From: a bacterium | GTDB taxonomy: Bacteria; Spirochaetota; Spirochaetia; JABEVK01 | Assembly (NCBI GenBank): GCA_021782055.1 | Contig: JAJXVP010000097.1 | Location: 1 to 9,562 of the forward strand | Direction: 5' to 3' | DNA: 9,562 nucleotides | Shown here: positions 1 through 9,320 of the stretch, piece after piece | Layout: every line of letters begins with the position of its first letter | Position numbering within the stretch: the stretch's first letter is position 1 | The notes under the pieces: model-generated | Told to the model about the DNA's origin: nothing | The model's input: only the letters and a program-made list of their open reading frames with translations | The model's database searches: none | Translations under genes and position numbers: made by a program

Positions 1-1724
1 TAGACGAAGGCCTCACCGCCTTTGTCCGAGAGCTCCAAAGAGCACGCCTCCACGGTTTTACCCCGACAGATTTTCACTTGGCCGTCAAAGAGCTAAAATC
101 CGAAATTGAGACGGCCTACGCGCAACGGGGTGGCTTAACGGATGAAGATCGGTTTCAAGCCCTAGCACAAAACTTTCTTACAGGTTTTCCGGTGCCCAGC
201 GACAAAGAGCAGTATGAGGCGGGCCTGAAGGCACTTTCGAGCATAACTTTGCCCGAACTTAACCAGTTTGCGTCCGGCCTTTTAGCATATCCCAAGTTCC
301 GTATGGCCATCTTGAACCCCGAAAAGCCGGGAGCACCTATTCCCTCTGGTGAACACTTTCTTAAGTTAGTGGCCAAAGTTCAAGCTGAGGGCGTTAAAGC
401 CTTGGCAAACCGCACGGTATTGCCCTTGATGACAACCTTGCCGACACCCGGAGCGATTGTTCAAGAACAGCACCTCACCGCCTTGGGCGTTACCGAATAC
501 CAGCTGGCCAATGGGGCTGTAGTCTATGCCAAACAAACCGACTTCACCCCTCACGAAGTGTTACTCAACGGCCAGCGACTGGGGGGACTGAGCCTTATTG
601 ATACCAAAGATTTGTTAAGTGTCGAACAAGCCCCTTCCCTGTTTTCACAAACCGGCTTAGGGCCTTTAGATGCCAGCCAGCTATCTGACTTTCTAGCCGG
701 AAAGCAGGTGCAACTGAGTGCCAGTGTGGGAACCAGTGGTGTATACCTCAGTGGTTCTGCCGCGACTCCCGATTTAGAAACTCTGTTTCAGCTACTCCAT
801 GAACAATTAGGTCCGCCTCATCGGGACCCCAGTGCCGAAGCCGCTTGGTTTGCCCAAATGCGCGACTACCTCAAAAACGCCGACCACCTGCCGCGCACCT
901 TGGTCCAAAGAGCCCTAGAACGGCTTTTGACGCAAGATAATCCGCGTGGACAACCCCTGACAGCGAAAAACCTGAGCCAGGTTAAGGCTGATAGGGCGGC
1001 CTTGCTGTGGGGCGACCTGTTAAAAAATCCCCATGGGTTAGTTCTGTCTATCGTTGGCGATTTTGATCCTGCGCAATTGCGACACCTGATTCGCGTGTAT
1101 GTGGCCAGTCTGCCGCCCGGACCGGCGACTCCCCCCCACGACTGGGGCATACGTCCCGTTTCGGGCCCCGAAACCACGGTGATCGCTCAGGGACAAGACA
1201 ACCGCGCAGAAAACACGTTGGTGATGATCAACCCACGACCCTTTCGCCCCGACGATCGTTTTGCCGCCAATACGCTAAAAGAATTGTTAAACATCAGACT
1301 TCGCGATGTTCTTCGCAATGAAAATGGCGGAACCTACAATGCTCAAGCCGATATTTCGTTGTCTCCCCTGCCCTACCCCCATGCCACAGCAGAAGTTGCC
1401 TTTACCTGTGCCCCAGCGCGGCAAAAAGACCTTGATGCTCTGGCCTTGAGTGTTTTGGACTCGGTCGTTCAGGACAAGTTTTCTCAAGCCGCCTTTGCTC
1501 AAGCCAAGGCCATCGCCGTACGCGGTGTTCAAGGGTATTTGAAACGGAACGCCTTTTGGAGCGGCATTCTTCCTGAATACAGCCTAAAAGGCTACCCGTT
1601 GGAAGAACTCGCAGGGTTGAGTGAACGGTACTCTCAAGTAACCCGTGCTCAGGTCGTAGCCCTTGCCCGTGAGGTTCTGACAACGTCTCGAGCGCTAGAG
1701 GTTGTTCTCAAGCCAGCGCCGTGA
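1..1724 (+). CDS. M16-family (insulinase-like) zinc protease, C-terminal part, 5' truncated
   Basis: The reading frame is open from position 3 to a TGA at 1722-1724, giving 573 residues, and it clearly starts upstream of the window. A TTG at 78 lies inside the gene and is not its start. Visible family features, in order: the helix pattern of the end of the first M16 repeat (residues about 1-40, with HGFTPTDFHLA), a long linker, then the second M16 half. That half contains GLGPLDASQLSDFLAGKQV (residues about 210-230), the inactive-domain signature LSIVGDFDPAQL near residue 350, and RLRDVLRNENGGTYNAQA near residue 440, matching the family's 'R..LRE..GG.YS' motif. Family members are two-repeat peptidases of roughly 900 residues that often sit in the periplasm or envelope and degrade peptides. 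The HxxEH zinc site of the N-terminal repeat lies outside the window, so activity cannot be judged. The 3' end overlaps the convergent esterase gene by 30 bp. Confidence 0.85.
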   Translation, partial: DEGLTAFVRELQRARLHGFTPTDFHLAVKELKSEIETAYAQRGGLTDEDRFQALAQNFLTGFPVPSDKEQYEAGLKALSSITLPELNQFASGLLAYPKFRMAILNPEKPGAPIPSGEHFLKLVAKVQAEGVKALANRTVLPLMTTLPTPGAIVQEQHLTALGVTEYQLANGAVVYAKQTDFTPHEVLLNGQRLGGLSLIDTKDLLSVEQAPSLFSQTGLGPLDASQLSDFLAGKQVQLSASVGTSGVYLSGSAATPDLETLFQLLHEQLGPPHRDPSAEAAWFAQMRDYLKNADHLPRTLVQRALERLLTQDNPRGQPLTAKNLSQVKADRAALLWGDLLKNPHGLVLSIVGDFDPAQLRHLIRVYVASLPPGPATPPHDWGIRPVSGPETTVIAQGQDNRAENTLVMINPRPFRPDDRFAANTLKELLNIRLRDVLRNENGGTYNAQADISLSPLPYPHATAEVAFTCAPARQKDLDALALSVLDSVVQDKFSQAAFAQAKAIAVRGVQGYLKRNAFWSGILPEYSLKGYPLEELAGLSERYSQVTRAQVVALAREVLTTSRALEVVLKPAP

Positions 1725-2351
1725 CCAAGTTGTCACGCGAGCTAGACTCTCGTCGCTGATCGTGTGTTCCATCTCGAACTCTTCGTAGTCGGGATGGATC
1801 CCCAAGGCCTCGAGGGCCTGGCGGGCTTGTCGTCCATGCGCAATCGGCAGGACTCGATCCCTTGTTCCGTGCACAATCAAATATGATATTTTGCTCAAAC
1901 GGCTCAAAGGAGCCGCCGCCGAAACCGAACTAGAAAGAATTCTACCGCTCATCAAGGCTGCGGCACTCAAACTCTCGGGCGAGGCTAAGGCCACCGAAGC
2001 AGCCATGATGGCTCCTTGGCTAAAACCAGCCGCCAGCACCCGGTTAGGATCTGTCCCATAGCGATCGGGCAACGATGTTAGAAACGTTTCAAGGAGTTCA
2101 CGGCTGTTAAGAGCAGAATTTTCGTCGGCAAGTAAACCGTCGGGGGTAAACTCGACAGGAAACCAAGCAAAGCTCCCTGGCCCAAGCGTTAGGGGAGCCC
2201 GCACGCTGATAACAAAAAATCGTGGCGAAAACTCTTCGGCTAGACCAAAAAGGTCTTCTTCGTTACTACCGTACCCATGGAGGAACATCAGAACTGGAGG
2301 GCGTTCTGAGGCTTCTCGAGGGGGCCGCACCAAATGATAAAGCTCAGACAT
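1695..2351 (-). CDS. Alpha/beta-hydrolase, phospholipase/carboxylesterase family
   Basis: This 218-residue serine hydrolase is typical in size for the carboxylesterase/phospholipase (Abhydrolase_2) family, which cleaves short-chain esters or acyl groups. Visible parts are the oxyanion-hole strand LMFLHGYGSNEEDLF (residues 21-35), the nucleophile elbow GFSQG with Ser111, the acid in HGTRDRVLP (Asp165), and the base in EMEH (His196). The catalytic triad is therefore complete. There is no signal peptide or membrane segment, so it is probably cytoplasmic. I chose the ATG at 2351. A TTG three codons upstream (2360) is a real alternative, because an AAGAG sits 5 nt before it. The gene follows the response regulator on the same strand after about 27 bp, so the two are probably co-transcribed. 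Its stop lies inside the 3' end of the convergent M16 gene. The substrate is unknown; deacylation of decorated glycans is possible, but nothing here shows it. Confidence 0.85.
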   Translation of the reverse strand: MSELYHLVRPPREASERPPVLMFLHGYGSNEEDLFGLAEEFSPRFFVISVRAPLTLGPGSFAWFPVEFTPDGLLADENSALNSRELLETFLTSLPDRYGTDPNRVLAAGFSQGAIMAASVALASPESLSAAALMSGRILSSSVSAAAPLSRLSKISYLIVHGTRDRVLPIAHGRQARQALEALGIHPDYEEFEMEHTISDESLARVTTWSRRWLENNL

Positions 2352-2379
2352 CTTACCCAACTTTACTCTTACCCAACTT
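2351..2379. repeat. 13-bp direct repeat between regulator stop and esterase start
   Basis: The sequence TCTTACCCAACTT occurs perfectly at 2351-2363 and again at 2367-2379, a 16-bp period. On the coding (minus) strand, one copy runs up to the first base of the esterase ATG. The other begins at the last base of the response regulator's TGA. The duplication thus fills the whole intergenic gap and also duplicates a GGGTAAG segment, which weakly resembles a ribosome-binding site. It looks like a small local tandem duplication. Confidence 0.8.
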
Positions 2380-3023
2380 CACTTAAGCATAAGCCATTCA
2401 TTGGCTAAAATACGCAATTCTTGAGTCGTCGCACACCCCAATTTTTGTTTAATGTGCTCTTTATGGGTATCAACCGTCTTGATGCTGAGCCCAATTTTTT
2501 CAGCAATCATACGCGAACCTAGGCCACGTCCCATCCAAGTAAAGACCTCAAGTTCACGGTCGGTAAGCTTTGAGGCGACATCCGGTGTAACCGACGTCCC
2601 TCCTCCAAGCATATTCTGGAGCATCAATTCTTTTACTTCGTCGCTAAACCATTTTCGACCATTACTGACGGCACTGACCGCTTCGAGAACGCGCTGAGAA
2701 ACCTCATCTTTTTGCACATACCCGAACGCGCCAGCCGCCAACGATCGTTCCGCGTAGACGCGTTCGTCGTGCATCGAGAGGATGAGCACCCGAAGCCCCG
2801 TATGCTTGGTCATCAGATCTTTTAACAACTCTAAACCATTATCTCCGCCCAAACTGAGGTCGAGCAGAACGACGTCGGGATGAGTTTCTTCGATGACCTG
2901 AAGTGCCTCTGAGCGATCAGAGGCTTCTCCTACGACAATATCCCTAGGCGACTTTGAGATCAATGACGCCAAACCTTTGCGAAAAATGGGATGATCATCG
3001 ACCAAAACAATACGAGTCTTCAT
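2379..3023 (-). CDS. Two-component response regulator, NarL/FixJ family (REC + LuxR-type HTH)
   Basis: This 214-residue cytoplasmic DNA-binding regulator begins with a receiver domain (residues 3-120). The acidic pocket is Asp9-Asp10 in VLVDDHP, the phospho-acceptor is Asp55 in VVLLDLSLGG, the switch Ser is Ser83 in ILSMHD, and the conserved Lys is Lys105 in GYVQKDE. A LuxR-type helix-turn-helix follows at about 152-210, with LTDRELEVFTWMGRG and the recognition-helix pattern GLSIKTVDTHKEHIKQKL. I placed the start at the ATG at 3021-3023, because the receiver fold begins immediately after it and AAAAAGG lies upstream. The same frame stays open to an ATG at 3212, but that extension runs through a terminator and resembles no domain. 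NarL/FixJ regulators pair with HisKA_3 kinases, and the only such kinase in the window is the LacI-type sensor kinase at 5294-7723, the likely partner. The esterase gene follows about 27 bp downstream. Confidence 0.93.
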   Translation of the reverse strand: MKTRIVLVDDHPIFRKGLASLISKSPRDIVVGEASDRSEALQVIEETHPDVVLLDLSLGGDNGLELLKDLMTKHTGLRVLILSMHDERVYAERSLAAGAFGYVQKDEVSQRVLEAVSAVSNGRKWFSDEVKELMLQNMLGGGTSVTPDVASKLTDRELEVFTWMGRGLGSRMIAEKIGLSIKTVDTHKEHIKQKLGCATTQELRILANEWLMLK

Positions 3024-3376
3024 GGGTTCTTGCCTTTTTCTTGTCTGTCCAGATTTGAGTATAGTCACATGCCTCCAATAAAAAAAGGGGGAACGGCTGT
3101 TGATCAACCGTTCCCATACCACAAGACAACCCTTTGCGGCCTTGGTTCCCGGAGTCCAATCAGGAACAAAACCCCTGTGAGCCAGAGATTTTCGGCCCAA
3201 GGTATCTGACATGAAGCTACACCCGAGCCCATTCTGCCGGAATCCAAGATTATCCTGATTCCAATTAAGAACAGCAACCTTACATTCAATCAGTTTATTT
3301 TCTGATGCTTGAAACAGTTTTATTTCTTATTCTCCGATTAGTACCTCCGTGACAAACTGAACTACTCAGGGAGCCT
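3024..3376. other. Divergent intergenic region between regulator and mutarotase-like gene
   Basis: This 353-bp stretch has no convincing gene. Short open frames exist on both strands, but none has a good ribosome-binding site or a recognisable product. It must carry the promoters of the minus-strand regulator/esterase pair and of the plus-strand mutarotase/GH16/kinase operon. On the minus strand it holds a strong intrinsic terminator (3078-3115) about 55 bp before the regulator start. Downstream of that is a TATACT hexamer (plus-strand 3057-3062) that could be a -10 element with a poor -35. Further upstream on the minus strand, a weak TTGCTG-N19-TAATCT pair (3247-3277) could start a leader. 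The part next to the mutarotase gene (3290-3335) is AT-rich, but I see no clear -35/-10 pair. Confidence 0.5.
3078..3115 (-). terminator. Intrinsic terminator in the upstream region of the response regulator
   Basis: On the minus strand, a perfect 8-bp stem, GGGAACGG / CCGTTCCC (3108-3115 with 3089-3096), encloses an 11-nt loop. It is followed by two C residues and then seven T residues plus ATT. The plus strand has no T-run after the stem, so the terminator works in the minus direction only. It lies between any upstream minus-strand promoter and the response regulator start at 3023, with no complete gene upstream to terminate. It may end a short non-coding transcript or act as an attenuator. 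Confidence 0.75.
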
Positions 3377-4345
3377 ATGACCATCACACTGCAAGAACAT
3401 CAAGAATCTGCGACACGAGAAATTGTTCTTGAGTCGTCTCGTCTAACTGCACGTTTTTTACCCGAAATTGGTTTTAAGTTTTGTTCCTTGCGCGAAAAGA
3501 CCTCAGGAATGGAGTTTTTATTTCAGCCGGTCAGTGGAAAGCATCCTATCCCAGCGTATCGTGGACGTTTCGTCGACTTTGAAGCTTCAGGATGCGATGA
3601 AATGTTACCGACGATCGACGAATGCCTCTATGAAGGACCAGTTTTTGCCGGTCGATCGTTGCCTGATCACGGTGGGGTTTGGAGCCGCCCCTGGTCCGTT
3701 CATCTGGCTGATCAAAAGATCCATGGGAGGATTCGACTTTTGGAATTGCCGCTCCTTTTCGAAAGGACCATTTCTTGGGTTGACGAAAACTCTTTGGAAT
3801 TCCGCTACCAGGTCACCAATGAAGGAGACTCTCCCGTCGATTACCTCTGGGCCCTGCACCCTCTTTGTGTGTTTCAGCATGATGCTAAACTGCTTCTCCC
3901 CCGTGTGTCAGAAATGTTTAACGTCCATCAATATGGTCAACGCGAAGAGGTTCTGCCCTTTCCCATTCAGGATTCATTGGGGAAAAAAGCCTGGAATGTC
4001 TGCGAGCTTGCCGAATATGCTGAAAAAAAATGTTACAAATTTTACCCTCAGGGCCCAATAACTGGCATGGCCGGCATTTGGTACAGAAGTCAGCATCTGG
4101 TTTTTCTTGTCGAATTTGATCCTAAAGAAACTCCTTACCTAGGAGTTTGGATCAATCGCGGAGACCCTGAAGTTCAAGGTGACTATAACCTCGCCGTTGA
4201 ACCGGCCAACGGCTTCTTCGATTCTCTCGCCGTTGCACAACGCCGGGGCACGGTGGTGACCCTCTTACCCCAGGAACAAAAATCTTGGAAAGTGGTAATC
4301 CGCGTGCTGGACGAAACGGCTCTCGATTTGAGTCAATTTGCATGA
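3377..4345 (+). CDS. Galactose mutarotase-like (aldose 1-epimerase family) protein
   Basis: This 322-residue protein has the layout of the galactose-mutarotase fold, an all-beta sandwich that interconverts alpha and beta anomers of sugars or acts on related sugar substrates. The catalytic positions can be read out: His98 in LPDHGGVW, His161 in LWALHPLC, and the general-base Glu275 in NLAVEPANGFFDSLA. Their spacing matches known family members (two His about 65-75 residues apart, Glu near the C-terminus). The end, VTLLPQEQKSWKVVIRV, matches the family's closing strands. There is no signal peptide, so it acts in the cytoplasm. The start is the ATG at 3377 with CAGGGAG just before it (short spacing). 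The GH16 gene follows after 20 bp, pointing to co-transcription. The overall similarity is to divergent 'aldose epimerase' proteins, so the true sugar, or even a non-mutarotase reaction, remains open. Confidence 0.8.
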   Translation: MTITLQEHQESATREIVLESSRLTARFLPEIGFKFCSLREKTSGMEFLFQPVSGKHPIPAYRGRFVDFEASGCDEMLPTIDECLYEGPVFAGRSLPDHGGVWSRPWSVHLADQKIHGRIRLLELPLLFERTISWVDENSLEFRYQVTNEGDSPVDYLWALHPLCVFQHDAKLLLPRVSEMFNVHQYGQREEVLPFPIQDSLGKKAWNVCELAEYAEKKCYKFYPQGPITGMAGIWYRSQHLVFLVEFDPKETPYLGVWINRGDPEVQGDYNLAVEPANGFFDSLAVAQRRGTVVTLLPQEQKSWKVVIRVLDETALDLSQFA

Positions 4346-4365: not shown

Positions 4366-5241
4366 ATGTTGAAACCAAGATTTTTAAAAACGGCCATTGT
4401 TTTGCTCTTGTTGGGAGTATTCTCTCAAGCCTTGACCGCTGAAGGGAGTCAAGAAAATGATCCGGGAGTTTTGCCCAGTTCCACAGGGTGGAAACTTGTT
4501 TGGCACGATAATTTTACGACCGGAAAATCGTTAACACAGGGCGTATGGATGCCTGAAGAATACCCACCGCTTGCCAACAACTCAGAATTGCAAGCCTACA
4601 CGGCTGATCCTGCCAACATTTATATCGCAAATGGTCACTTGGTTTTGGAGGCTTTGCGAACCAAGACCAAAAATGGCTGGAAGATCACCTCAGGACGCAT
4701 CAGCTCATCGATGAACCTTGCCTTTCGTTATGGCCGCTTAGATTTTCGAGCCAAACTTCCTTTAGGTCGGGGAACCTGGCCCGCCTTGTGGCTTCTTCCC
4801 ATAGACCCCTCGGGGCACGGCTATATGTGGCCGGATTCGGGCGAAATTGATGTTATGGAAGAAGTAGGGTTTGAAGGAAATAAAATCCACAGTACGCTTC
4901 ACACCTCAAAGTATAATTACACTCTTGGCACACAAATTACAGCAACCTACCCTGTTCGCGAAGTCAATCATTGGCATGTGTATTCTCTGGAATGGTACCC
5001 CGATCATATTACTTTCCTTGTCGATAACCATCCGTTTCTCACCTTTAACAAAGATGGCGGTGACTGGCGCCGCTGGCCCTTTGATAAGCCATTCTATATC
5101 ATCATGAACTTGGCAATTGGCGGGACTTGGGGTGGTCAACATGGCGTCGACAACAAGCTTTTTCCTGCGAAAATGGAGGTTGATTGGGTTAGGTTGTACC
5201 AAAATCCAAACGTGCCGGGCTCCGAGATCGTGCACCCCTAG
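4366..5241 (+). CDS. Exported glycoside hydrolase family 16 (beta-1,3- or mixed-linkage glucanase)
   Basis: This is a 291-residue GH16 enzyme, a family that cleaves internal beta-1,3/1,4-glucan or related links with retention of configuration. An N-terminal signal peptide is visible: basic MLKPRFLK, then a hydrophobic core, then a probable signal peptidase I site at about residues 22-25. It has no lipobox cysteine, so the product is periplasmic or secreted. The active-site motif is GEIDVMEE with nucleophile Glu160, Asp162 and acid/base Glu165, the ExDxxE (beta-bulge) form typical of laminarinases. Other family strands are RLDFRAKLPLGRGTWPALWLLP (about 124-145), HVYSLEWYPDHITFLVD (about 204-220), FYIIMNLAIGGTWGG (about 243-257) and the closing MEVDWVRLYQ. 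It is a single catalytic domain with no attached binding module; binding may instead come from the CBM9-like lipoproteins nearby. Laminarin or lichenan is the likeliest substrate, but agarose- or carrageenan-type specificity cannot be excluded from motif alone. Confidence 0.92.
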   Translation: MLKPRFLKTAIVLLLLGVFSQALTAEGSQENDPGVLPSSTGWKLVWHDNFTTGKSLTQGVWMPEEYPPLANNSELQAYTADPANIYIANGHLVLEALRTKTKNGWKITSGRISSSMNLAFRYGRLDFRAKLPLGRGTWPALWLLPIDPSGHGYMWPDSGEIDVMEEVGFEGNKIHSTLHTSKYNYTLGTQITATYPVREVNHWHVYSLEWYPDHITFLVDNHPFLTFNKDGGDWRRWPFDKPFYIIMNLAIGGTWGGQHGVDNKLFPAKMEVDWVRLYQNPNVPGSEIVHP

Positions 5242-5293: not shown

Positions 5294-7723
5294 ATGAGTA
5301 TCGGCGAGATTATGGATTTAGCAATCATTTGCACCGACGCAGCCGACCTCTATCAGCTCAATCTTATCCGCGCCTTGACCAAGTTGTGCTCAGAGAGGGG
5401 GATTACCACCTGTGCCCTCACGGTAAATGTAGCCTGGCGGGAGCACCCCAGTGCGGATATTGATCAGTTGATGGTGGCCTGGGCTGAACACGGTGTTTTT
5501 GATGCTTATGTTCTGCTCGTTGACCCCTTAGTCATTAATTCTGATATGCCCTCTGCCGCAAGGATTCTTAAAGCAATTTCGCGCCGCCCGGGGGTGGTCA
5601 TTGGTCAACCAACAGTTCCATTGCCAACTGTAACTGTCGACAATGAACAACCCATGCGCGATATGCTTCGTCACCTCTATGACAGTCATGGGTATCGACA
5701 CTACCTTTTTCTCCTAGGTCCGGAAAACTCCTTCGACGGCTCACAGCGCGAAGAGGCGATTCGACAAGAAATCGCCCAATTTCCGGACGTAACGTCTGAA
5801 TACCTCCGTGCCTTTTTTCAAGAAGACATCGCCTATGAGTTGGTAAAAGAGCGTCTGCAAGACTCCTCTCGCCCCTTTCCTCGCGTAATTACAGCTTGTA
5901 ACGATAACATGGCTTTTGGTGCACTTCGAGCCTTGGCGGAATTTGGTATTGCGGTCCCGGCAGAATGTGCTGTTACAGGCTTTGACGATGTTGAGTTGGC
6001 AGCTTTACAAGTCCCGTCATTGACAACAATTCGTCAAGAACCGTTGGCCACGGCGCAAGCCGTTCTTGATTTGTTAGCCTCAGCTGGCCCCACAGAAACC
6101 CGTTCGGCTGTTAGGCGTACCATTCCTACTACCCTGATCCTTCGGGAGTCGTGCGGTTGTAGCCGCGATGCGCCCATTGACTTTTATCGGGAACGGCTTG
6201 CCCTTTCGACATTTGCCCAAAGCCAGGACAGCCGCTTTCGGACAGCGGTTTCGGACTTTAGCCTTTCGGTGAATGCTGTAGCGAGTATTACCGAACTCAA
6301 TAATTCTCTGAACCACTTCGCCAAGGTAGCTGGTGTCAGGAATTTGGCTTTTGGCCTCTTTGAGCCGACCAACTACCTTTCGGTTTCTCGCATCTCCCCC
6401 TCGGACCCTGGCCTCGTGACCAATGAAAACACAGTTGTCTCTGCCAAAGATTTTATTGGGCCTATGGGGATACCCCTTTCTACGGGAGAAGTAACCGTAG
6501 CCTTTCTCCTTTTAGTCTCAGGAGAGTTGCAAGGGGTTTTTGTTTGTCAATGCGACGCCCGACTGATGCAGATGATTCGTATTGTCGCTTCACACACGAT
6601 CAATACCCTTCAGCGGCTTCGCATGACAGAGCAACTTTTGCACCATACCGAAGAGTTAGAAGTAGCGGTGGAGCTTCGCACCCAAAGTCTGACGCTTGCC
6701 ATGCGTGAACTTGAAAAGGAAGTACATCAACGCCGTCAGTTGGAAGGCTCGCTTCAGCAGGAAAGGCATGCCTTAGAGACGATTCTGAATAGTCAACCGA
6801 TTCCCTTACTGATTATCAGCGAACAGACCAACAAGGTGCTCTTTGTCAACCAGCCCGCCAAGGAAATGCTCAGGCTCGAGCGCGACGAAGCCGCCGAGGG
6901 TGGCATTCTTGACTGTGTGGCCCCTTTGCTGACTTGGGCAAGAGGAGCGAGTAAAGAAAGTATTCGCGAATTTAAAATCGAAGATACGAGACACCAGCAA
7001 CATCAAATTTTAGCCAGCGGGACTGAGCTCACCCTGCGCGGAGAACGTTCACATATTCTGTGTGTGGTCGATATCAGTCAACAAAAACAATTAGAAAAAG
7101 AACTTTTGACTATAGCCGAGCAAGAACGAGAACGCGTCGGAATGGAAATTCACGATGATGTCTGCCAGCAAATTGCAGCGCTCTCTATTTATGCCGGCAT
7201 GGTACGCGATGAGGTCCGCTCACGCGGGAAGCCCCCCTCTGAAATGGATGAGTTGATCCATTTAATCAACACCCTTCAAGCCAGGGCCAGGGCAATTTCG
7301 AAAGGCCTATTCCCTAAGGACGTTGGTTCTGTTCCCATTGCTGAGGTAATTCAAGAGTTTTTATCTGGGATAGAAAAACAAACAGGCTTAACTTGCGTTT
7401 TTGAAGCAGAACCGCAAAAAGCTGGTGCTAGTCTCAATTTCGGGGCCCAATTGCACCTTTTTCGGATTGTCCAAGAATCGGTACAAAACGCCCTTAAGCA
7501 TGCCAAAGCAACACGGCTCAATTTTCAACTTAAGGAATCGCCCGGGGAACTCCTCTTGACGTATCAAGATAATGGAAAAGGCTTTGGAGAGGCTTCTGAA
7601 AAAGGTATAGAACTGAGAACCATTCGCTACCGTGCCGCACAACTATCAGGAATCTTTACTGTAGGCGATGCCCCCGAAGGTCAAGGTGCTTTCCTCAATC
7701 TGCGTATTCCACTCCACGATTAA
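5294..7723 (+). CDS. Soluble hybrid sensor histidine kinase: LacI-type sugar-binding domain, GAF-like, PAS, HisKA_3, HATPase
   Basis: Domains of this 809-residue protein, in order. Residues about 5-285 form a LacI/GalR-type periplasmic-binding fold (Peripla_BP_3), with VTVDNEQPMRDMLRHL, the hallmark ACNDNMAFGALRAL (201-214), AVTGFDDVELAA (226-237) and PSLTTIRQEP. It ends in RESCGC (284-289). The usual N-terminal DNA-binding helix-turn-helix is absent. Residues about 300-445 look GAF-like. A coiled coil (about 447-495) leads into a PAS domain (about 495-600). The HisKA_3 dimerisation helix ERERVGMEIHDDVCQQ carries phospho-acceptor His620. The ATPase domain has N-box Asn732 in QNALKHA and DNGKGF at 759-764. 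I see no signal peptide or membrane helix, so it should sense a cytoplasmic ligand, probably a sugar. The start has GAGGGGGG 4 nt upstream, and a later ATG (5312) is possible. It follows the GH16 gene by 52 bp with no terminator between them. The likely partner is the NarL-type regulator encoded divergently at 2379-3023. Confidence 0.93.
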   Translation: MSIGEIMDLAIICTDAADLYQLNLIRALTKLCSERGITTCALTVNVAWREHPSADIDQLMVAWAEHGVFDAYVLLVDPLVINSDMPSAARILKAISRRPGVVIGQPTVPLPTVTVDNEQPMRDMLRHLYDSHGYRHYLFLLGPENSFDGSQREEAIRQEIAQFPDVTSEYLRAFFQEDIAYELVKERLQDSSRPFPRVITACNDNMAFGALRALAEFGIAVPAECAVTGFDDVELAALQVPSLTTIRQEPLATAQAVLDLLASAGPTETRSAVRRTIPTTLILRESCGCSRDAPIDFYRERLALSTFAQSQDSRFRTAVSDFSLSVNAVASITELNNSLNHFAKVAGVRNLAFGLFEPTNYLSVSRISPSDPGLVTNENTVVSAKDFIGPMGIPLSTGEVTVAFLLLVSGELQGVFVCQCDARLMQMIRIVASHTINTLQRLRMTEQLLHHTEELEVAVELRTQSLTLAMRELEKEVHQRRQLEGSLQQERHALETILNSQPIPLLIISEQTNKVLFVNQPAKEMLRLERDEAAEGGILDCVAPLLTWARGASKESIREFKIEDTRHQQHQILASGTELTLRGERSHILCVVDISQQKQLEKELLTIAEQERERVGMEIHDDVCQQIAALSIYAGMVRDEVRSRGKPPSEMDELIHLINTLQARARAISKGLFPKDVGSVPIAEVIQEFLSGIEKQTGLTCVFEAEPQKAGASLNFGAQLHLFRIVQESVQNALKHAKATRLNFQLKESPGELLLTYQDNGKGFGEASEKGIELRTIRYRAAQLSGIFTVGDAPEGQGAFLNLRIPLHD

Positions 7724-7854: not shown

Positions 7855-8574
7855 CTATTCCAAACGTGCAACAGTAGTCCACTCTGATGGGGTGTGGTAG
7901 AAATCAGCATTTCCCGTCATGATCCACTGGCCATCGCGCGACAAACCAGGGTCTGACGCGGTGTCGAGCGCAAAATCGAGCATAAAGGTTTTGCCAGAGG
8001 CCGGTGTATAGTTGAAGTGGCTCCACAACACTTTGGCCGACATTTGGTAACCTTGCGCAGTGGGGACCACCTTAATCTCTTGCGCCGGATCGCCCGTTCC
8101 ATGGGTCCAATCGTGGCTAGACGGATTAATATGGGACCGGGCATTCCCGGGGGAAATCCCAATTTGGTAGTCTTGAGGACCAATTGCCGCTGCATACTTA
8201 CTTTCTGCCGGGTCAAGCCCCAAAAGAACTTCTAGACAGTTACCGTTCCAAATATCCTTGCCAGTCTGGAAATTGATCGGTTTTACACCCGAAACATCAA
8301 TGTAGATATAGAGCGCGGTAGCGTCGTAGGCAAGGTGAATCTTACCTGTGACTCCAGCATCCGCATCATTGATGGGGAATACGCCCGCCGCAGGCCAGCC
8401 GGTATCGGTGCCATCAATCGTTAGCGGTGAAGCCGCCTTGGGGATAACGGTTCCTGCGGCTGCAGCTGAAGCCGCAGAGTTATCTGAAGCCCCAGAGGGC
8501 GCGCTAGCGCACGAAACCGCCGTCAAAAGAGCCGCGGATACTGCCGCCGCCGCAAACCAAGACCTTTTCTTCAT
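7855..8574 (-). CDS. Lipoprotein with CBM9-like carbohydrate-binding domain (copy 2 of tandem pair)
   Basis: This 239-residue product has a lipoprotein signal peptide: MKKRSW, a hydrophobic alanine-rich core, then AVSC with the lipidated Cys at 22. An Ala/Ser-rich linker (about 23-42) follows. The rest is one beta-sandwich domain resembling carbohydrate-binding module family 9 (CBM9_1), with TIDGTDTGWPAAG, the strand YDATALYIYIDV, DIWNGNCLEVLLGLDP, DYQIGISPGN, SHDWTH and a closing QWIM...GNADFYH. The family binds sugar ends through aromatic residues. No catalytic motif is visible. It should be anchored to an envelope membrane. The start ATG has AAGGAG 6 nt upstream. It lies 29 bp after its paralogue on the same strand, so the two are likely one operon, ending at the terminator at 7735-7768. 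The domain assignment is by pattern only; ligand and membrane side are unknown. Confidence 0.85.
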   Translation of the reverse strand: MKKRSWFAAAAVSAALLTAVSCASAPSGASDNSAASAAAAGTVIPKAASPLTIDGTDTGWPAAGVFPINDADAGVTGKIHLAYDATALYIYIDVSGVKPINFQTGKDIWNGNCLEVLLGLDPAESKYAAAIGPQDYQIGISPGNARSHINPSSHDWTHGTGDPAQEIKVVPTAQGYQMSAKVLWSHFNYTPASGKTFMLDFALDTASDPGLSRDGQWIMTGNADFYHTPSEWTTVARLE

Positions 8575-8603: not shown

Positions 8604-9320
8604 TTATTCAAGCTCAGCAACCTTGGTCCACTGAGAGGGAACGTGGTAGTAGTCCGCGTTACCATCCATGATCCACTGACTATCACGCGACAGGCCCATA
8701 CCTGAGGCTTCATCCAGGGCGAAATCTACGGCAAAGGTTGTCCCCGAGGCAGGCTTGAAACCGGCAAAATGACTCCACGGAATGCTGGCTTCCATTTGAT
8801 AACCTTGAGCGGTAACAACCACTTTCATAGCACTAGCCGCTTGACCGTTGTTATGGGTCCAGTCATGGCTGGTTGGCTCAATCTTGACACGGGGATTTCC
8901 GGGTGAAAGCCCGATCTGATAGTCTTTGTCGCCCATCGCTGCTTCAAACTTGCTGGCATTAGGGTCCATACCGAAGAGAATTTCTAAGGCATTGCCGTTC
9001 CAAATGTCTTTACCATGATTGAAGTTAATCGGCTTGTCGCCGTTCACCGACACGAAAACATAGAGGTTCGTTGCGTCGTAGCAGAGCTTGATGTTGCCCG
9101 TTACCCCATCGGCATCGTCGTTAATCGCAATGCCCTTGGTGGCGGGCCAACCTGTGGCATTTCCGTCCACAGGAATAGCACCAGTAGCCTTGGGAATCAC
9201 AATAGCCCCGTTGGCCGGGGAGACAGAGCTTCCTGCCGAACCTGTTGTTGCACAAGACGCTAACAGCGCCACGCTGGCGGCCATACCCAAAACGGCTAGG
9301 CTTCCTCGCAATAATTTCAT
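8604..9320 (-). CDS. Lipoprotein with CBM9-like carbohydrate-binding domain (copy 1 of tandem pair)
   Basis: This 238-residue protein has a lipoprotein signal peptide ending in the clear lipobox LLASC (Cys23), a short Gly/Ser-rich linker, and a single CBM9-like domain. By eye it matches its downstream neighbour at more than half of the domain positions. Shared blocks include GKDIWNGN, DYQIG.SPGN, SHDWTH, TAQGYQM, WSHF, PASG, DFALD, GLSRD, QWIM and GNAD, and both end in W-T-x-V-A-x-L-E. The signal peptide and linker differ between the two, so the copies are an old duplication with a conserved binding domain. It is the first gene of the minus-strand operon. The start ATG (9318-9320) has GAGGT 5 nt upstream, and a plausible promoter lies at 9440-9467. 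It has no enzyme motif. A glycan-binding role at the envelope is inferred from the domain and from the nearby GH16 gene. Confidence 0.85.
   Translation of the reverse strand: MKLLRGSLAVLGMAASVALLASCATTGSAGSSVSPANGAIVIPKATGAIPVDGNATGWPATKGIAINDDADGVTGNIKLCYDATNLYVFVSVNGDKPINFNHGKDIWNGNALEILFGMDPNASKFEAAMGDKDYQIGLSPGNPRVKIEPTSHDWTHNNGQAASAMKVVVTAQGYQMEASIPWSHFAGFKPASGTTFAVDFALDEASGMGLSRDSQWIMDGNADYYHVPSQWTKVAELE

Follow-up and report, generated by a model that had tools for sequence, protein, structure and literature searches.

A LacI-type sensor domain joined to a cytoplasmic HisKA_3 histidine kinase in a spirochaete, with a NarL-type regulator as its likely partner

We have analysed a stretch of spirochaete DNA of 9,562 nucleotides (contig JAJXVP010000097.1, here called the window), the features of which are collected in Table 1. 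The gene for a NarL/FixJ-type response regulator, whose true start may be a GTG at 3068 behind a GGAGG, is divergent from a run of DUF4432, GH16 and kinase genes on the + strand, the last two being separated by a gap of 52 bp. The same gene order is found in the closest named relative, L001 (contig JABEVK010000043.1, a Spirochaetales MAG), where an ABC solute-binding protein and two permeases are encoded beyond the CBM9-like genes. A DUF6909 protein with a cyclic-nucleotide-binding domain is encoded downstream of these ABC genes (L001 12871-14892, − strand). A broken gene or frame artefact was rejected as the origin of the kinase, whose reading frame is intact and is matched in L001 over residues 1-809, with 93% identity in the best segment.

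Table 1. Genes, domains and motifs of the window
Feature	Position	Strand	Remarks
M16-type peptidase (inactive-domain match)	3-1724	+	cut by window edge
Carboxylesterase-like hydrolase	1695-2360	-	3' end overlaps that of M16-type peptidase gene
NarL/FixJ-type response regulator (receiver + GerE HTH)	2379..3023	-	likely partner
DUF4432 / aldose-epimerase-like protein	3377..4345	+	first gene of operon-like run
GH16 beta-glucanase-like enzyme	4366..5241	+	signal peptide (by eye), EIDVME motif; ORF opens 4285
LacI-type sensor / GAF / PAS / HisKA_3 histidine kinase	5294..7723	+	809 aa
LacI/PurR-fold ligand-binding domain	5294..6154	+	residues 1-287; R152, N203, D231 included
Junction motif R284-E-S-C287-G-C289	6143..6160	+	RESCGC 284-289
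Linker helix + GAF-fold domain + long coiled-coil helix	6167..6754	+	residues 292-487
PAS domain	6773..7072	+	about residues 494-593
HisKA_3 dimerisation/phosphoacceptor domain	7124..7318	+	His620 in HDDVCQQ
HATPase_c domain	7337..7711	+	Asn732, DNGKGF 759-764
CBM9-like protein	7855..8574	-	lipoprotein-type signal (by eye)
CBM9-like protein	8604..9320	-	lipoprotein-type signal (by eye), paralogue of 7855..8574 protein

An earlier note, made from the window alone, had described the kinase as a LacI-type sensor domain joined to a histidine kinase instead of a DNA-binding domain, and Pfam and fold alignment confirm this. No helix-turn-helix was found in the protein by the Pfam scan, the ligand domain starting at residue 4-7, and alignment with LacI-family chains places the two-lobed LacI/PurR fold over residues 4-289, which settles the fold check that the note had proposed; the chains of PurR and CcpA align nearly as well as that of LacI. 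The N-terminal 76 residues lie outside the Pfam matches. The order of domains that had been read by eye (LacI-type, GAF-like, coiled coil, PAS, HisKA_3, HATPase) is borne out by Pfam and the structural model, and so is the completeness of the kinase: its kinase domains exceed the Pfam cut-offs, and H620, N732, D759, G761, G763 and F764 are invariant in an alignment of 7. PAS is rare in such proteins, being found in P0002, P0003 and L002 among 34 other LacI-HisKA_3 fusions whose alignment rows were checked. The cytoplasmic location likewise holds, in that no membrane segment is predicted. A membrane-bound sensor was considered and rejected: the hydropathy peak at residues 400-418 (1.94) is a hairpin of the GAF domain in the structural model. 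Several relatives have peaks at or near the same hairpin (L007 1.74 and L034 1.70, for example), others elsewhere, and no peak of 2.0 or above occurs in the 61 LacI-HisKA_3 fusions drawn from the best 80 of 450 relatives.

The earlier note named no partner for the kinase, and we find that the NarL-type regulator of the window is a likely one. For the relatives of the kinase, the best 80 of 450 loci were kept, 61 of which combine a LacI-type domain with a HisKA_3 kinase (45 with Treponema-type titles and 16 with other spirochaete titles). In these 61 loci, from the best 80 of 450, a NarL-type regulator is adjacent to the fusion in 48, lies within three genes in 56 and in the fetched locus in 58, and it is the divergent upstream neighbour in 43. 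As a control, such a regulator is adjacent to 6 of 483 other genes, each at least four genes away. No regulator lies in the fetched stretch of L002 or L042, and L055 begins at a contig edge. We also searched the window regulator against four genomes (G001, G002, G003 and G006). The two top matches in G001, a 98% orthologue and then a 40% match, each adjoin a LacI-HisKA_3 kinase, as do the top matches in G002 (46%) and G003 (50%); in G006 the best match (33%) adjoins another HisKA_3 kinase, on a contig in which the Pfam search finds no LacI-type domain. It is the linkage across loci, together with orthologous regulators beside orthologous kinases, that makes this regulator the probable partner, and on these sequence grounds phosphotransfer to it from the kinase is likely. 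The close relative of the window encodes another LacI-type HisKA_3 kinase as well (L132, G001:C35:9908-12531), downstream of which lies a NarL-type regulator gene of its own.

The DNA between regulator and kinase genes was examined as well. No convincing shared operator emerged: 32 regulator-kinase intergenic regions hold no convincing shared inverted repeat. A few AT-rich palindromes did beat simple block shuffles, and the gaps are short. The leader of the window regulator (3080-3190, − strand) contains a terminator-like hairpin of 11 bp and a T run (3115-3089) right before a ribosome-binding site, and a GGGAAC further upstream is a possible competitor for the terminator arm. The block that holds them is nearly identical in L001, and the 111-nt leader stretch folds with z −2.9. 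Possibly the leader regulates its gene as an attenuator or riboswitch. In the scanned region, sites that resemble terminators are not above chance (3 found, 3.1 expected), Rfam finds no RNA family in the window at gathering cut-offs or around the leader at E 0.1, and, among 60 genomes of the phylum, the leader sequence occurs in that of the close relative alone.

The neighbours of eight further fusion loci were scanned by Pfam, with one gene each for L005 and L036. Glycan genes lie beside the kinase-regulator pair in five of the eight: GH10-CBM9 xylanase-like genes in L014 and L026, GH43, GH67 and GH3 in L025, GH2 with ABC genes in L027, and polysaccharide deacetylases in L046. Of the other three, L042 has a glycosyltransferase and a permease adjacent, with GH3 further off, and the single genes scanned in L005 and L036 are signalling genes. 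In the Treponema-type loci (L007, L008, L079 and others) the surroundings of the pair are conserved and include single-domain receiver-like genes on the upstream side; the genes around these copies have no single sugar theme. Over the 61 loci from the best 80 of 450, with one representative of each scanned, GH77-type genes occur in 25 neighbourhoods, chromate-transporter-type genes in 26 and nucleoside-phosphorylase-type genes in 30; in 21 of the loci the second gene upstream belongs to a GH77-type cluster.

What does the sensor bind? R152, N203 and D231 align with Arg197, Asn246 and Asp274, the inducer-contact residues of LacI, and they are kept in 40, 36 and 37, respectively, of the 40 signalling fusions sampled below. 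The sugar sensing proposed in the earlier note is made likelier by this comparison. Given these conserved residues and the glycan and ABC genes near the window kinase, in L001 and in other loci, we consider it quite likely that the ligand is a carbohydrate or a derivative of one. The main alternative is that the domain responds not to a sugar but to, for instance, a purine, a nucleotide, a sugar phosphate or a partner protein, its carbohydrate neighbours being incidental. LacI-family domains do bind non-sugars, as in PurR, or a protein, as CcpA does with HPr. The near-equal alignment of the PurR and CcpA chains would suit this alternative, and so would the chromate-transporter-like and nucleoside-phosphorylase-like genes counted above near the pair. 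It leaves aside, however, that the three residues are conserved at the very places where LacI contacts its inducer, and that carbohydrate genes accompany the pair in the window and in those five distant loci; we thus regard a non-sugar ligand as unlikely.

The earlier note treated the fusion as a single case, although it proposed a search of domain databases, and here our reading departs from it: the window sensor appears, from the comparisons that follow, to be a member of a single lineage in which LacI-type domains are joined to many different signalling outputs. A unique fusion event was rejected, as further LacI-domain fusions occur in many loci and in a protein search. The 48 LacI-domain proteins of that search have chemoreceptor, GGDEF, HisKA, HisKA_3, RsbU-like, STAS and LuxR-type HTH outputs, classes assigned roughly, by best match. 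All 48 have [ST]CGC right behind the domain, a count that is biased because the query words include the motif, and the claim about the junction thus rests on two Pfam-based samples. The first consists of all 75 Peripla_BP_3 matches from six genomes that were chosen from the relatives' loci and are hence rich in fusions; where a genome is assigned to a phylum, the assignment follows the title of the locus through which it was reached. Its 76 ORF rows gave 69 usable domains, after removal of L100 (a truncated duplicate), L142 (a fragment at a contig end) and five rows of 329-401 aa that scored low and lacked the motif (L131, L152 twice, L153, L154). Of the 69 domains, 35 lie in long proteins, 33 of them with a C-x-C at the junction, and 34 are repressor-sized, all lacking it. 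The second sample comprises 40 regions, namely all ten with an open frame of at least 560 aa and 30 shorter, hand-chosen ones, and 41 rows with XylR. It added five N-terminal signalling fusions, of which four have C-x-C, along with 36 other proteins, including XylR of E. coli and AraC-type fusions, none with C-x-C at the junction; the junction is poorly placed in six of these 36 rows (L159, L183, L187, L192, L193, L196) by a profile match that is short or breaks off early, and no C-x-C occurs anywhere in those six.

A tree of the domains, built without the junction, places the 35 fusions of the first sample on one side of a branch (SH-aLRT 99, and bootstrap 100, the bootstrap being not fully settled). 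In a joint tree of 101 rows, which excludes rows scoring below 85, L159 and domains shorter than 220 residues, the 40 fusions again fall on one side (SH-aLRT 89). The window protein is represented in both by L130, its orthologue from the genome of L001. As there is no outgroup, the trees show separation and not direction; one departure from DNA binding followed by exchange of outputs would be the simplest reading of them. Two observations lie beside this question. In L157 (1615-3987, − strand; G007:C111), one 790-aa ORF encodes a complete LacI repressor, with HTH and ligand domain, together with an extracellular-type solute-binding protein (SBP_bac_1), which may be a true fusion of genes or an artefact of assembly. 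A 5.4-Mb genome from the phylum of G001, G052, has 72 Peripla_BP_3 matches, a large expansion; some of these are in proteins of 400-650 aa, and two of those that were checked by Pfam are AraC-type fusions.

By these counts, a C-x-C junction marks the LacI-type domains that are fused to signalling outputs. Of the 40 fusions, 37 retain C287 and C289, a share equal to that of D231 and larger than that of N203; the three without them are L109 and L184, sisters in the 101-row tree, and L146. None of the 70 other LacI-type proteins has the motif at the junction, and four of them have a C-x-C elsewhere. Inheritance and retention under selection is the simplest reading. The same distribution would also suit a second input, in which the two cysteines of each chain, four per dimer, would gate signalling between sensor and output, either by holding a metal or an iron-sulphur cluster or as a redox-sensitive disulphide. 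Since rumen or gut sources are named in many record titles, an oxygen-sensitive cofactor is conceivable, yet three fusions do without the cysteines, and the motif, because its presence follows the lineage, may be structural or merely inherited; we judge such an input improbable. We likewise doubt a wider proposal, in which LacI-type sensors left DNA binding once and gained, on the axis of the dimer, a C-x-C switch based on a metal, an iron-sulphur cluster or thiols; the resulting dual-input module, which would report ligand together with redox or metal state, would later have been combined with kinases, diguanylate cyclases, chemoreceptors and LuxR-type regulators.

We propose that the locus probably encodes a cytoplasmic two-component system sensing an imported carbohydrate. 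The secreted GH16 enzyme and the CBM9-like lipoproteins would process and hold a beta-glucan outside the cell, and a sugar or oligosaccharide would be imported, ABC genes being present in L001. Inside the cell, the ligand would close the LacI-type domain. In repressors, closure moves the DNA-binding heads; here we infer that it is relayed the opposite way, via the C-x-C junction and the linker helix, and then through GAF, coiled coil, PAS and the HisKA_3 dimer to alter autophosphorylation of His620. The NarL-type regulator would then receive the phosphate and act on the divergent DUF4432-GH16-kinase run, and perhaps on the CBM9 and ABC genes too. That the system controls the GH16 and DUF4432 genes, as the earlier note had proposed, is plausible from the operon-like layout, and we lean towards control of the whole run and the neighbouring uptake genes. 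Alternatively, the main signal could enter through the GAF and PAS domains. A vestigial sensor domain, with GAF or PAS ruling the kinase, is very improbable, for all that both folds are present and the Pfam matches omit the first 76 residues, as the LacI-type fold is complete, its cleft residues rank with the best-conserved positions of the lineage and the PAS segment is missing in most relatives checked.

We compare this kinase here with known systems. First of all, LacI is the textbook DNA-bound sugar switch, and the window sensor shares with the LacI/GalR repressors (LacI, PurR, RbsR and CelR) the ligand-binding fold and, by alignment, the inducer-contact residues; it differs in lacking the HTH, in its histidine-kinase output and in the C-x-C, which was unseen in the repressor-type proteins examined. 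Second, NarX/NarQ, UhpB, LiaS and DesK have the HisKA_3 and HATPase domains and the linked NarL-type regulator gene in common with the window; they are membrane proteins, whereas the input of the window kinase is a cytoplasmic LacI-type domain. Third, XylR of E. coli (L156) has a LacI-type domain with a foreign output at its C-terminal side, as in the window. Its output, however, is DNA-binding and its branch is long, and XylR and two other AraC-type fusions, considered as members of the lineage, were rejected since they lack C-x-C and lie outside the signalling-fused group. Fourth, the sensor of BT1754, a Bacteroides hybrid two-component protein, has a LacI-like periplasmic-binding-protein fold. 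BT1754 binds fructose and is needed to raise adjacent fructan genes, its sugar-binding domain directly controlling a histidine kinase (PMC3404733). The presumed sugar sensor of the window kinase would act likewise; BT1754, on the other hand, senses in the periplasm across the membrane and contains its own regulator with an AraC HTH, whereas the window system has a cytoplasmic sensor and kinase and a separate regulator. With no membrane segment and, by the Pfam scan, no fused receiver or AraC domain, the window kinase falls outside the Bacteroides hybrid systems. Finally, LacI-type fusions to GGDEF, chemoreceptor, HisKA, RsbU-like, STAS and LuxR-type outputs share the sensor lineage and an R-x-S-C-G-C-like junction and differ in output. 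The periplasmic-binding-protein-like domain, which is also in LacI regulators, is listed in a review among putative sensory domains of c-di-GMP enzymes, and the available part of that review gives it no experimental role and no cysteine motif (PMC8846402). Automatic annotation already names such fusions ('signal transduction histidine kinase/DNA-binding LacI/PurR family transcriptional regulator'), and in the open-licence literature we found no publication on LacI-type histidine kinases, their regulator partner or the junction motif.

The LacI-type switch, cut from DNA, thus appears as a portable cytoplasmic receptor of one lineage, in genomes titled Spirochaetales or Treponema, Anaerolineae and Ruminococcus. 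If this is confirmed, many LacI-domain kinases, cyclases and chemoreceptors could be treated as intracellular metabolite sensors, whose ligands would be sought from the neighbouring genes, with the cysteine junction as a candidate common coupling element. The set also offers engineers natural junctions between LacI-type domains and kinases, and some spirochaete glycan loci gain a likely regulator pair.
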